This document shows, piece by piece, positions 12,665-15,632 of a stretch of DNA of 64,000 bases (the first letter of the stretch is position 1; each line of letters starts with the position of its first letter). The notes under the pieces are model-generated. The model did not search any database, was not told the origin of the DNA, and worked only from the letters and a program-made list of their open reading frames with translations. Origin of the DNA: Prochlorococcus sp. AG-418-G18 (GTDB taxonomy: Bacteria > Cyanobacteriota > Cyanobacteriia > PCC-6307 > Cyanobiaceae); the NCBI GenBank assembly GCA_003214215.1, contig QCLX01000006.1, positions 1 through 64,000 on the forward strand, read 5' to 3'. The translations under genes were made by a program, and so were the position numbers.

Positions 12665-12768
12665 TATTATAGATTTGTAGCAACCGCTACCAAAACGTTC
12701 AACTTGCGTATAGCAAGCCGCAAATCGACTTAAGCCATGGAACGGGGACTTAAGCGAAACCGGAGCTA
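12665..12768 (+). promoter_or_regulatory. Candidate glutamine-II (Downstream-peptide) riboswitch with upstream -10 element
   Basis: This 306-base gene-free stretch (12469-12774) ends in a structured leader. CGTTC (12696-12700) pairs with GAACG (12740-12744). Inside lies a hairpin CTTGC-GTATA-GCAAG (12703-12717). The self-complementary CTTAAG occurs at 12729-12734 and again at 12749-12754, so the two can pair across the outer stem as a pseudoknot. A GGAG ribosome site (12762-12765) follows, then a very short ORF. This order (outer GTTC/GAAC stem, hairpin, pseudoknot, tiny ORF) matches the Downstream-peptide class, which senses glutamine. TATTAT at 12665-12670 is a plausible -10 box. I saw nothing else firm in 12469-12660. 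Confidence 0.65.
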
Positions 12769-12923: not shown

Positions 12924-13011
12924 TTGTCCATTCTTAAACTAAAAAACAACTTAATACTTCTCACAAGCATTAAAGTAATATGATTCAATTGCATTTATAT
13001 ATTAGATAACT

Positions 13012-13161
13012 ATGGCAGACCAAAAACCTTTATTTAAAGCACCTTATGACATAAAAGATGTAAGTGCTCTTTTCGCCATAGTTGCCTTCGTTTTAATAAT
13101 CGCTGCAATAGTTGGGAATAACTTATTTGGTTTATTTCAACAAAATGTCAACTTTGGGTGA
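13012..13161 (+). CDS. 49-residue single-span membrane protein
   Basis: Starts at ATG 13012 and encodes a short polar N terminus (MADQKPLFKAPYDIKD) followed by one membrane helix at about residues 18-41. The clean reading frame, the small acidic-basic head and the helix look like a genuine small membrane protein, but no family is recognised. It is isolated between the terminator and the tRNA-Ser gene, so it should have its own promoter in 12924-13011. Confidence 0.5.
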   Translation: MADQKPLFKAPYDIKDVSALFAIVAFVLIIAAIVGNNLFGLFQQNVNFG

Positions 13162-13361
13162 ATTTTTTTGGAAGCAGACTAGATTTTTTGTGGACTAAAT
13201 TTGACTAATAAATAGATTGTTATAACGATTTAACTCATCATTTAATAAAAATTCCTATCTCAAACTAGTTTCTTGAAATAATTTTTAAATCTTTGAATTT
13301 ATAGACTGTGACTAATTTCTTATGTTATAGTTTTTAAGTTCAATAAAACTGAAGAACCCGT

Positions 13362-13448
13362 GGAGGGGTGGTCGAGTGGTTTAAGGCTCTAGTCTTGAAA
13401 ACTAGCGTATCTGCAAGGGTACCGTGGGTTCGAATCCCACCCCCTCCG
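13362..13448 (+). tRNA. tRNA-Ser(TGA)
   Basis: Full class II tRNA. The acceptor stem GGAGGGG/CCCCTCC spans 13362-13368 and 13441-13447 with discriminator G 13448. The anticodon stem CTAGT/ACTAG encloses the loop CTTGAAA with anticodon TGA at 13396-13398. A long variable arm (GTATC/GGTAC) follows, then a T arm GTGGG-TTCGAAT-CCCAC. No CCA is encoded. Its 3' end serves as one boundary of the adjacent inserted segment. Confidence 0.97.
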
Positions 13449-13450
13449 TT
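13437..13450 (+). repeat. Left attachment-like repeat in the tRNA-Ser 3' end
   Basis: CCACCCCCTCCGTT covers the end of the T stem, the 3' acceptor strand and two following bases. An identical 14-bp copy lies at 15293-15306. Such a GC-rich exact repeat is very unlikely by chance in this A+T-rich sequence and is what site-specific integration at a tRNA leaves behind. Confidence 0.8.
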
Positions 13451-13468
13451 TTAGAAGATGTCAGAATA

Positions 13469-13510
13469 TACTATTTTTGTCTCAGAAAATCTGAGATGCC
13501 AAGTATAGTA
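13469..13510. repeat. Nested inverted repeat directly after the tRNA
   Basis: TCTCAG (13480-13485) and CTGAGA (13491-13496) form a hairpin with an AAAAT loop. Outside it, TACTAT (13469-13474) and ATAGTA (13505-13510) are also inverted. It could be a recombinase-binding region or a processing/termination hairpin for the tRNA transcript; there is no strong T tract after it. Confidence 0.45.
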
Positions 13511-13792
13511 ACTTAAATTACAAATTAAATTTATTTCTTAGTTTTATTAAAACGCTTATTTTACTTTTTAAAAACCTAAAAATTTTATCTCCTTTATTGA
13601 GAATAGCACTTATAAAAATCAATAAAACTTTTAGGAAAAAATAAAAAATAAGCAAAATATATTAAATAAGTTTGTAAATTAAAATACAAATTATTTGATC
13701 AATTTTCATCTCAACTAATAGAACATCTTTTTTTTATGAAGTGTCTAAAAGTTTAAAATTTAATTTGCTTTTTTTAATTAAAACTTTGTTTA

Positions 13793-14752
13793 ATGAAAAA
13801 AATTAATTTTAAAGATTCTGGATTTTTTTTTGATGCATCCCAATTTTCCAATAAAAAAAGATTTGGCGGACATGCCCCAGTAATCATAGATATTATTAAA
13901 AATAAACTAGAAATGGTTTTGGGAGTATATGAAGAAAGAAATAGAACTTACATTTCTAGAATTACATTAAAAATTGATATTGAAAATAACAAACCAAAAT
14001 TTTCAGTACTTAATCAAAATGTAGATAACGAATTTATAAAAAGGGGAGATATAGGTTCTTATTCTGAATATGGAATAATACCAAGTTGTTCTATTAAAGT
14101 TAAAAATAGATACGCACTGTATACTATTGGATTCGATTCCAGAAACAAAGAAATATTTCATGTTGCATCCGGTCTGGCATATTTAGATAATAAATTTAAT
14201 TTAATAGAGCATTTACCAGGCCCAGTACTTGAAAGATCTGTAAATGATGCTTGTTTTTCATCTAGTCCTTTTGTATTTAAAGATAGTAAAAGTTTTAAGA
14301 TTCTTTATGTATCTTCATCACATTATGGCTCAATCGGCAATGAAAAATATCATCACTACTACTCAATTAAAATGAGGGAATCACAAAGTGAAAATATTAT
14401 CCCAATTAATTCAATCGAACTAATACCTCCAACAAATTCTCTTGAATATGCAATTGCAAGGCCCTCTTTAACTTTTATTGATAAAAAATATTTCCTTTTC
14501 TATTGCAAAAGAATTAATGAAATTAGTAACGACTATATGATTTTTTGCCGAAAATCTAAAGAATTAAAAGATTTTCCCCAAAAGGAAGATTATTTTGTAT
14601 CAATAAATAACTTAAATGATAAAAACTTTTCTGATTGTCAGTGTTATCCAAATATTTTCAGATTTGAAAAATTTTTAATGATGTTTATAAATGGGAAGAA
14701 ATATGGAAGGACTGGATTTAGAATTGCATATTGTTATCAAGATGATCTTTAG
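13793..14752 (+). CDS. Five-bladed beta-propeller protein, glycosidase (GH43/GH32)-like
   Basis: A 319-residue protein with no signal peptide. Repeated blade-like segments contain FGGHAPVIID (about 21-30), a SSPFVFKDSKSFKILYVSS strand pair, ARPSLTFIDKKYFLFYCKR and a final CYPNIFRFEKFLMMFINGKK. The pattern (aromatic strand, polar turn, Y/F-rich strand) resembles the five-bladed propeller enzymes often found in surface-polysaccharide clusters. I cannot identify catalytic acids, so it may be a glycosidase, a glycosyltransferase-associated domain or a binding protein. It is the only intact cargo gene of the tRNA-anchored segment and is more A+T-rich than the core genes. Confidence 0.5.
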   Translation: MKKINFKDSGFFFDASQFSNKKRFGGHAPVIIDIIKNKLEMVLGVYEERNRTYISRITLKIDIENNKPKFSVLNQNVDNEFIKRGDIGSYSEYGIIPSCSIKVKNRYALYTIGFDSRNKEIFHVASGLAYLDNKFNLIEHLPGPVLERSVNDACFSSSPFVFKDSKSFKILYVSSSHYGSIGNEKYHHYYSIKMRESQSENIIPINSIELIPPTNSLEYAIARPSLTFIDKKYFLFYCKRINEISNDYMIFCRKSKELKDFPQKEDYFVSINNLNDKNFSDCQCYPNIFRFEKFLMMFINGKKYGRTGFRIAYCYQDDL

Positions 14753-14894
14753 AAAAATTAAAACAGAAAATATAGTTCTCCATGGCGAGAAAAATCGATT
14801 TTGTTTAGAAGCAATATATGCTTTAATACTGGCCGGAAAGTCATTTACAAATTTAAACTTTAATCAACCAAAAGAACTTTTATTAAATGAATGA
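14742..14894 (+). CDS. 50-residue ORF overlapping the propeller gene, possibly a fragment
   Basis: Begins at ATG 14742 inside the last codons of the propeller gene (11-base overlap) and ends 8 bases into the following broken frame. The product (MIFRKIKTENIVLHGEKNRF and on) has a helical alanine/leucine stretch but no recognised family. The overlap suggests translational coupling, but it could equally be the tail of a longer lost gene. Confidence 0.35.
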   Translation: MIFRKIKTENIVLHGEKNRFCLEAIYALILAGKSFTNLNFNQPKELLLNE

Positions 14895-15283
14895 TAGAAA
14901 AGTAAGAACTGAGATTCAGAAATGGTTAGATAACACTTAGGATAATTTCCCTCCAGAGTTCTTTATAACCATTCACTACAAAGACTTACCAACAAAGATT
15001 GAAAGAGCGAAAGAACATATTAGTCACTTCAATAATGTCTTGTTTCGTAAGTTTCAGGGAGTCTCCAGAAGTGTGAAAGTTCCTCCAATTACAAAGTGGA
15101 TAATGGTTGAACACTTTCACGAAGTTAATCCAATGACAATAAAGAGTAAGGGTGGATTACCTAAACGAAAATAATTTTTTGTATTATAGAGATAAGTATG
15201 AGTGGGATAAAGAATTAGATGATGTTGGTGATTCTTATATAATTAAGGTTGGATACTGTGTCAGTTCAGTTCATTCTGTTTAG
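14887..15283 (+). pseudogene. Broken reading frame in the element, possible replication-type protein
   Basis: From ATG 14887 the frame runs to an in-frame TAG at 14938-14940, continues open to TAA at 15172-15174, then shifts by one base and stays open to TAG 15281-15283. The joined product would be about 130 residues. Segments such as FPPEFFITIHYKDLP, HISHFNNVLFRKFQG and KWIMVEHFHEVNP faintly recall Rep-like (HUH) proteins of small elements, but the resemblance is weak. It stops 10 bases before the right repeat, the place where integration or replication genes usually sit. Confidence 0.45.
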
Positions 15284-15292
15284 ACTTTACTT

Positions 15293-15306
15293 CCACCCCC
15301 TCCGTT
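15293..15306 (+). repeat. Right attachment-like repeat, copy of the tRNA-Ser 3' end
   Basis: CCACCCCCTCCGTT repeats 13437-13450 exactly. The flanking bases differ on both sides, so the duplication is limited to 14 bp. No tRNA can be folded around this copy. Confidence 0.8.
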
Positions 15307-15377
15307 CAAATAAAAAGAACCGAATAATATAAACGCCCTTTTAAAACGTACTTGTTAGGATAGATTTTATTTAGATT

Positions 15378-15578
15378 ATGAGTAAAGGATTTGCCACAGA
15401 TAATTTAATATCCAAAAAATCGAAAAAAAAAGTTATTTCAAATGAACCGCAAGGAAGATTAATATCTTGGTCTCCTTGGCCACCTGCTAATTTTCAAACA
15501 CGATATCCTGCTTTCCCTTTTGTTCTTACAATATTGATTGTAGTAATCGGGCAATGGTACCTTTCTCTACTTAGGTGA
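15378..15578 (+). CDS. 66-residue single-span membrane protein
   Basis: Basic N terminus (ISKKSKKKVIS) followed by an aromatic/proline block (SWSPWPPANFQTRYPAF) and a C-terminal membrane helix at about residues 46-64. No family is recognised. It is the first gene after the right repeat, so it belongs to the ancestral chromosome beside tRNA-Ser. It may be cotranscribed with the next membrane-protein gene 54 bases downstream. Confidence 0.55.
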   Translation: MSKGFATDNLISKKSKKKVISNEPQGRLISWSPWPPANFQTRYPAFPFVLTILIVVIGQWYLSLLR

Positions 15579-15632
15579 CCCGAAACTGTTTTTTGTATTT
15601 AAATTAGGATAAATTAAGTTTTAGAATTTATT

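Follow-up and report, generated by a model that had tools for sequence, protein, structure and literature searches.

Within the 64,000-nucleotide stretch of Prochlorococcus sp. AG-418-G18 analysed here (contig QCLX01000006.1, positions 1 to 64,000; hereafter the window), the 3' end of tRNA-Ser(TGA) is followed by an insert of 1842 bp and 26% GC (13451-15292), which is bounded by two copies of a 14-bp sequence. The insert contains one intact open reading frame (ORF) of 319 amino acids (aa) at 13793-14752 and then a broken coding sequence, which proved to consist of two distinct things, a fragment of an AMP-ligase gene and a separate gene of a 190-aa type. An earlier examination of the letters alone (the sequence-only reading) had described a gene-poor segment with one cargo gene and a broken frame, and this description was confirmed, with the broken part resolved into the remains of two genes. 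The insert is very probably the decayed remnant of a tyrosine-integrase element with one intact cargo gene, and it is probably immobile now. The features of the locus are given below; G000 designates the genome of the window in a set of 266 genomes of the genus, and G026 (Prochlorococcus sp. AG-355-P18) is a relative with a larger element at the same tRNA, between the same repeats and with the same outer ends.

13012-13161, + strand: conserved 49-aa gene of the left flank (ORF with matches in the genus)
13361-13449, + strand: intact tRNA-Ser(TGA), the integration target (ARAGORN; Rfam tRNA at 13362-13448, 57.3 bits)
13437-13450, + strand: left core repeat (attL core) CCACCCCCTCCGTT, exact repeat, single copy in the 15 genomes listed below with an uninterrupted site
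13451-13498, no strand: truncated left arm, common to G026, aligning with G026:C25 directly after its tRNA
13793-14752, + strand: cargo gene, 319 aa (ORF), modelled as a five-bladed beta-propeller of glycosidase type
14767-14873, + strand: fragment of an AMP-binding (adenylation) enzyme gene, 74% DNA identity to G000:C4:26544-26650
14887-15180, + strand: rep-like gene of the element (190-aa type), broken; 87% identity to the unbroken protein of G026 over its residues 1-98
15165-15211, no strand: micro-inverted piece of the rep-like gene region, 47 bp, matching G026:C13:1904-1950 on the strand opposite to the neighbouring segment
15218-15292, no strand: right arm (attR side) with one GTTGGTGAT iteron, 84% over 75 bp to G026:C13:5935-6019
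15293-15306, + strand: right core repeat (attR core) CCACCCCCTCCGTT, exact repeat, also at G026:C13:6020-6033
15307-15632, no strand: conserved right flank (joined-flank query), directly 3' of the tRNA in genomes with an uninterrupted site

The left copy of CCACCCCCTCCGTT ends at 13450, one base beyond the 3' end of the tRNA. The exact recurrence of these 14 bp at 15293-15306, as claimed by the sequence-only reading, was verified, and the two copies are the only exact ones in the window, with 1.6e-5 copies expected from base composition per 64 kb on both strands. When up to three mismatches were allowed, the window gave four matches, whereas shuffled sequences gave 0.82 on average and reached four in 1 of 100 cases; since such matches also arise by chance, only the exact match is informative. 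The reversed pattern, used as control, gave 0 matches in every one of the 266 genomes. The locus thus combines an intact tRNA at one end with a direct repeat of the tRNA 3' end at the other, as in a tRNA-targeted integrative element.

The state of the site in relatives was examined with a joined-flank query of 596 nucleotides, made of the two flanks of the window without the insert (E ≤ 1e-20). Matches were obtained in 201 of the 266 genomes, and in at least 15 of them (G046, G131, G235, G084, G003, G262, G033, G108, G191, G129, G013, G139, G152, G098 and G211) a single alignment, from query base 1-7 to base 596, joins 13450 to 15307 exactly at the repeat. Each of these 15 genomes possesses exactly one exact copy of the 14-mer, and in local alignments, for instance in G046, G013 and G084, the end of the left flank and the start of the right flank fall on the same 14 bp. 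In G119, an alignment runs through the junction from query base 10 to 585 at 76% identity. In at least 66 of the 266 genomes, some of which have inserted DNA upstream of the tRNA, the right flank begins immediately after a complete tRNA. With the left-flank query 12980-13450, many matches in the genus cover query bases 1-178, the region holding the 49-aa gene. The exact 14-mer is present in 130 of the 266 genomes and occurs twice in 15; in 14 of these the two copies share contig and strand and are separated by 249-2246 bp, the exception being G026 with one copy on each of two contigs.

A search with the insert against 200 genomes (own genome included) gave some match at E ≤ 0.001 in 122 of them, nearly all short and weak. 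Outside the own genome, strong matches were restricted to G026 (best E = 1.1e-136), the next best genome being at 5.1e-6, and the cargo protein was found in 3 of the 266 genomes, its own among them. The sequence-only reading had proposed to look for strains with an empty site or with a larger element between the same repeats, and both exist, the empty site in at least 15 genomes and the larger element in G026. It had also named two results that would speak against it, the same content in all strains and a carrier relative devoid of the second repeat; neither occurred, the second repeat being present in G026.

A tree was built from 1.9 kb of left flank for 30 genomes, which were the best matches of the left-flank search. 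On this tree, the empty state needs six changes, at least four of them forced by well-supported branches, and the three states together need 10 changes versus a shuffled mean of 14.3, so that occupation of the site has changed several times. The window and G026 are not neighbours; the placement of the window has modest support (82/79).

In G026, contig C25 carries the left flank, the tRNA and 48 bp matching 13451-13498, and on contig C13 a match to 15218-15292 is followed by the other copy of the 14 bp and by the right flank. We infer that both contigs hold one element, of at least 7.6 kb if they belong together. Four genes were recognized inside the right end on C13:

G026 C13: AlpA-type protein, 65 aa (9.9e-12)
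G026 C13: tyrosine integrase, 426 aa (Phage_integrase, 2.2e-8)
G026 C13: serine resolvase/recombinase, 216 aa (resolvase, 5.6e-23)
G026 C13: 190-aa protein, the unbroken version of the window's broken frame

With a view to packaging, capsid or other morphogenesis genes of phage origin, as carried by a phage satellite, eight proteins were scanned, seven from G026 C13 and the window cargo. Matches of named function were limited to integrase, excisionase and DNA invertase; the remaining proteins of this set matched families of unknown function or nothing. The 190-aa protein occurs in 4 of the 266 genomes (the window's, G026, G221 and G179), and in G221 and G179 it lies again near a G026-type integrase and a serine recombinase. 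In three such elements (L034 1667-2239, L124 10430-11059 and L125 9189-9773) the protein, 190-209 aa long, shows the motifs HFHE and HTHT in conserved form. Foldseek, run with a model of pLDDT (predicted local distance difference test) 52, returned a few weak hits to the Rep domains of adeno-associated virus and pMV158, none at E ≤ 0.001; a HUH-type rolling-circle replication initiator is a possible identity, and the protein is called rep-like only. No relative was confirmed in IMG/VR, and none was found in the phage records. The G221 and G179 elements adjoin tRNA-Ser(CGA) and tRNA-Asn(GTT), respectively. The latter measures 7962 bp, including 13-bp copies of the tRNA-Asn 3' end, and has the same layout as G026 with a different repeat, GTTCTGG, in three and two copies. 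No second copy of the tRNA-Ser(CGA) end bounding the G221 element was found by exact search (10 bases or more). At tRNA-Ser(TGA) itself, G049 carries an integrase 44% identical to that of G026 within a 6.1-kb insert.

Compared with G026, the window is devoid of the integrase, the AlpA-type protein, the serine recombinase and the unbroken 190-aa frame. The G026 integrase gave no match at E ≤ 1e-20 in the window's genome (1.15 Mb, 66% complete). Because no integrase was found inside the insert and its sister has one, the window element was classified as a remnant and not as an active element, which supports the earlier proposal of a remnant that had lost its integrase and kept its cargo. The arms are damaged as well. 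On the left, the match between the window and G026 stops after 48 bp, where G026 continues with three GTTGGTGAT iterons, none of which is found in the window at 13437-13800. On the right, one of the two GTTGGTGAT iterons of G026 and a further 10-bp repeat unit are missing, so that the window retains no iteron on the left and one on the right. The broken rep-like frame contains one TAG and one TAA.

The internal order also differs from that of G026. With respect to the right end, the rep-like segment lies the other way round. Within it, the 47-bp piece, bounded in G026 by TTTATCAC and GTGATAAA, has been flipped once more at an inverted repeat of 8 bp. The DNA between the rep-like segment and the right arm is missing. 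A simple inversion was considered as the source of this order and rejected, because the 47-bp piece is opposite in orientation to its neighbour, as would result from a fold-back or from two events. One candidate for the cause of the inversion is the serine recombinase. The inverted segment, the micro-inversion and the deletion could be natural or could stem from single-cell amplification; the point changes should not.

These results are best explained by the following course of events. A tyrosine integrase would have inserted the element at the 3' end of tRNA-Ser(TGA), with the 14 bp at the tRNA end as crossover core and with the tRNA left intact; the iterons are putative binding sites. The larger sister element persists at the same site in AG-355-P18. 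In the lineage of the window, the genes of the integrase, AlpA-type protein and serine recombinase would have been lost through internal deletion and rearrangement, by which the rep-like gene was also broken, the left arm truncated and the right arm shortened. With its genes lost, its rep-like gene broken and its arms damaged, the element can probably no longer excise, and one cargo gene, probably for surface-glycan metabolism, is still intact.

To place the window among the other inserts of this tRNA, the length of DNA separating the right flank from the tRNA or core was measured at 47 sites (window included, G026 not), which were chosen from genomes with an apparent interruption on the 3' side or with two cores and consequently give no estimate of the frequency of occupation. 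Thirty-nine of the 47 inserts are shorter than 3 kb. A hidden Markov model (HMM) built from 23 relatives of the G026 integrase matched a single insert, that of G049; other recombinase families could escape this model. When 20 of the 86 insert ORFs (100 aa or more) were submitted to Pfam one by one, no integrase was found and three ORFs remained without any match; a scan of all 86 ORFs matched 70 families, of which the 25 most frequent were considered. Restriction-modification genes occur in larger inserts (G091, L209; G090, L202; G181, L201), the G201 insert (L190) carries a D12-type DNA methyltransferase, and EcoRV was matched by 1 of the 86 ORFs; none of the inserts of G090, G091, G181 and G201 yielded an integrase with the 23-relative model.

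Several inserts have ends in common and different cargo. In G145 (L079 6958-7192) and G004 (L189), the insert consists of the two ends alone, 235 bp with no gene between, and nearly full-length matches to this ends-only insert were found, irrespective of the surroundings, in G116 (L222) and G157 (L227). The shortest inserts, in G149 (92 bp) and G061 (97 bp), may be scars and not inserts. The same 163-aa cargo gene lies inside two different end types in G222 (L192) and G241 (L196), with 84% DNA identity, as if cargo had been swapped. At or near the ends of cargo ORFs in G052, G222, G223, G241 and G038, the sequence AATGAAACGCTT was observed, with variants, and reads as the start of a frame MKR...; it could be a joint, or what is left of a single family of small secreted proteins.

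For the analysis of iterons, the set comprised 41 inserts, namely the 47 minus seven of less than 520 bp, plus that of G026 taken from its two contigs. A 7-mer was retained if two or more copies stood in the left 330 bases and likewise in the right 180, and if it had at least three different letters and at least three G/C, a filter that misses the TGTGTTTGGG iterons of G170 and G070. An iteron pair was detected in 12 of the 41 inserts, G026 among them, versus 21 of 1640 mispaired sides, and none of 20,000 random pairings reached 12; the inserts are partly akin to each other and are not a random choice. Lambda-type integrases have a layout of arm sites, and the paired iterons look like it.

Among 13 two-core inserts compared with the window, a string test of the left core failed to find an intact tRNA in two, G070 and G180, perhaps owing to tandem elements. 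In G222, two elements may stand in tandem at one tRNA, since a second left arm (G222:C1:126072-126172, L245) begins where the first insert has its right core. A second mode of occupation was found in G156 (L069), G147 (L081), G192 (L082), G163 (L068), G056 (L071), G159 (L070) and G180 (L078), where the match of the left flank stops at 13403-13412, just past the anticodon, and an intact tRNA lies further downstream; elements thus also seem to enter through the anticodon region of the tRNA. One core-plus-left-arm pattern gave 0 matches in IMG/VR, hence no sign of packaged copies was seen there.

Several observations weigh against the proposed decay of an integrase element. By the strict test, 29 of the 41 inserts, the window among them, are without an iteron pair; a missing pair is therefore common and by itself is no proof that the window element is dead. 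No genome was found in which the window's insert still has an integrase inside, and the G026 element is split over two contigs, with its full length and the join lying outside the view. The site states on the tree are more clustered than after shuffling (the empty state was as low in 10 of 500 shuffles), so part of the pattern of occupation is inherited. Besides, an intact copy elsewhere in the same genome is possible, given that this genome is 66% complete. The first of these points also bears on another explanation, in which the insert is not dead and is a non-autonomous cargo cassette, excised and moved by a related integrase from another element. It agrees with the near absence of detected integrases in the measured inserts, several of which share ends, with the 235-bp ends-only inserts of G145 and G004 and their near-full matches, and with the retention in the window of both cores and of the outer parts of both arms; if the pair is dispensable, its absence may not matter. 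The comparison with G026 argues the other way, as all three left iterons, one of the two right iterons and the 10-bp unit of the right arm have been lost, and we consider such a cassette unlikely.

Another doubt concerns the internal structure, which might be a chimera of single-cell amplification or assembly, the real genome having a longer element at this place. The inner junctions (inverted 310-bp segment, 47-bp micro-inversion folded back at an 8-bp inverted repeat, adjoining deletion) resemble such chimeras, for which junctions of this kind are typical; the genome of the window is in 40 contigs, and the three genomes named bear AG- sample codes, which we take to denote single-cell genomes. 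This explanation is nevertheless quite unlikely in our opinion, because chimerism should not make point differences such as the TAG in the rep-like gene and the divergence of the arms, because both outer ends match G026 independently and because no integrase match exists in the 1.15 Mb of the genome. Finally, the DNA concerned could be ordinary intergenic sequence in which the 14-bp repeat is a coincidence or an unrelated piece of tRNA. A conserved tRNA end can indeed find short matches, as seen with three mismatches in the window, but the very low expectation for exact copies, the uninterrupted genomes joined at exactly this repeat and the ends held in common with the integrase-bearing G026 element make coincidence extremely improbable, and it was rejected. 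Decay of a tyrosine-integrase element remains the strongly favoured reading of 13451-15292.

A more general scheme may be put forward tentatively, and we regard it as possible and doubtful. The 3' end of tRNA-Ser(TGA) would host small, mostly integrase-less cassettes with two attP-like arms, many with an element-specific pair of 11-12-bp iteron clusters and some reduced to 235-bp arms alone. Cargo (restriction-modification, surface-glycan genes, small proteins) would be swapped between the arms, the cassettes would be moved by an integrase with matching iterons, and the window would be a dead member. The survey suggests that few inserts at this tRNA own an integrase and that some carry paired iterons particular to the element; if so, the helper integrase for each cassette should be predictable from sequence.

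The 319-aa cargo protein has relatives in G216 (29% identity) and G145 (25%). By sequence alone, it gave nothing above the cut-off in Pfam or PDB, and no cargo relative was found in the phage records; the G216 and G145 homologs have matches above the cut-off to GH130 (9.7e-7) and GH32N (1.4e-6). The best AlphaFold2 model of the window protein had a pLDDT of 70.6 and a predicted template-modelling score (pTM) of 0.78, the other four models having a pLDDT of 38-48. Foldseek with this best model returned five-bladed propeller glycosidases, with BT_0996 as top match (E = 3.2e-8, TM-score 0.59), and the cargo protein is accordingly modelled as a five-bladed beta-propeller of glycosidase type. The cargo gene probably serves surface-glycan metabolism.

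The G216 and G145 homologs sit among genes that, judged from their translations, look like those of surface polysaccharides. The G216 cluster comprises an AMP-binding gene (2.3e-20), weaker matches to formyltransferase and acyl-carrier domains, below the Pfam cut-off, and a WbqC-like neighbour judged by eye; the Pfam match to WbqC was obtained with the copy on contig C4 of the window's own genome. On the same contig, the counterpart of the AMP-ligase fragment lies within a 526-aa ORF matching PF00501. As the cargo relatives lie in polysaccharide-type clusters and an AMP-ligase fragment is present, the former cargo of the element probably included part of a gene set for surface glycans. The polysaccharide-type cluster of the own genome, on contig C4 (L035 3477-10672), comprises genes for WbqC and an AMP ligase together with others that were assigned by eye; this cluster is related to the cargo remains in the window. 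Sugars of the cell surface can serve phages as receptors, and the cargo would tie the element to them.

Mobile elements of Prochlorococcus named tycheposons were reportedly described by Hackl et al. (Cell, 2023). They reportedly use seven tRNAs and have a tyrosine recombinase of a deep-branching clade. There are also integrase-less mobilisable islands and elements resembling miniature inverted-repeat transposable elements (MITEs), in which the ends are kept and the recombinase is lost, with possible movement in trans. By analogy with these, the window has kept its ends and lost the recombinase, and movement in trans may be possible; unlike them, its arms are damaged compared with the sister. 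Tycheposons are treated in the available portions of PMC10872708, PMC11389934, PMC12416821 and PMC10187409. The window shares with them the host genus, the insertion at a tRNA gene, the cargo genes and the tyrosine recombinase (here in the sister elements), and differs in having no recombinase and in the insert length of 1.84 kb, versus the 4-200 kb quoted in the accessible part of PMC10872708; the G026 sister measures at least 7.6 kb if its contigs join. PMC10187409 (a preprint) describes, in the text available, an integrase element of picocyanobacteria that lies near tRNA-Phe or tRNA-Cys and is often accompanied by a small serine recombinase, and calls its integrase distinct from those of tycheposons. 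As far as that text goes, the elements studied here resemble it by the tyrosine integrase with a small serine recombinase, the tRNA-linked island and the variable cargo including restriction-modification, and differ by their tRNAs, Ser(TGA), Ser(CGA) and Asn(GTT). The limits of tRNA-targeted islands (Islander, PMC4383910, from the portion available) are recognizable from the target gene, intact at one end and represented at the other by a displaced fragment; the insert looks like a remnant of such an island, unlike these in having no integrase gene. No description of integrase-less tRNA cassettes in Prochlorococcus was found in the titles and the beginnings of abstracts of the papers listed, and one may still be in print.

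With the uninterrupted site, the larger relative and the remnant all at one place, the locus would offer a well-delimited case of a mobile element dying and leaving its cargo in one of the ocean's most abundant organisms. Upstream of the left flank, a Glutamine-II riboswitch was detected at 12693-12754 with 69 bits (gathering score 33).

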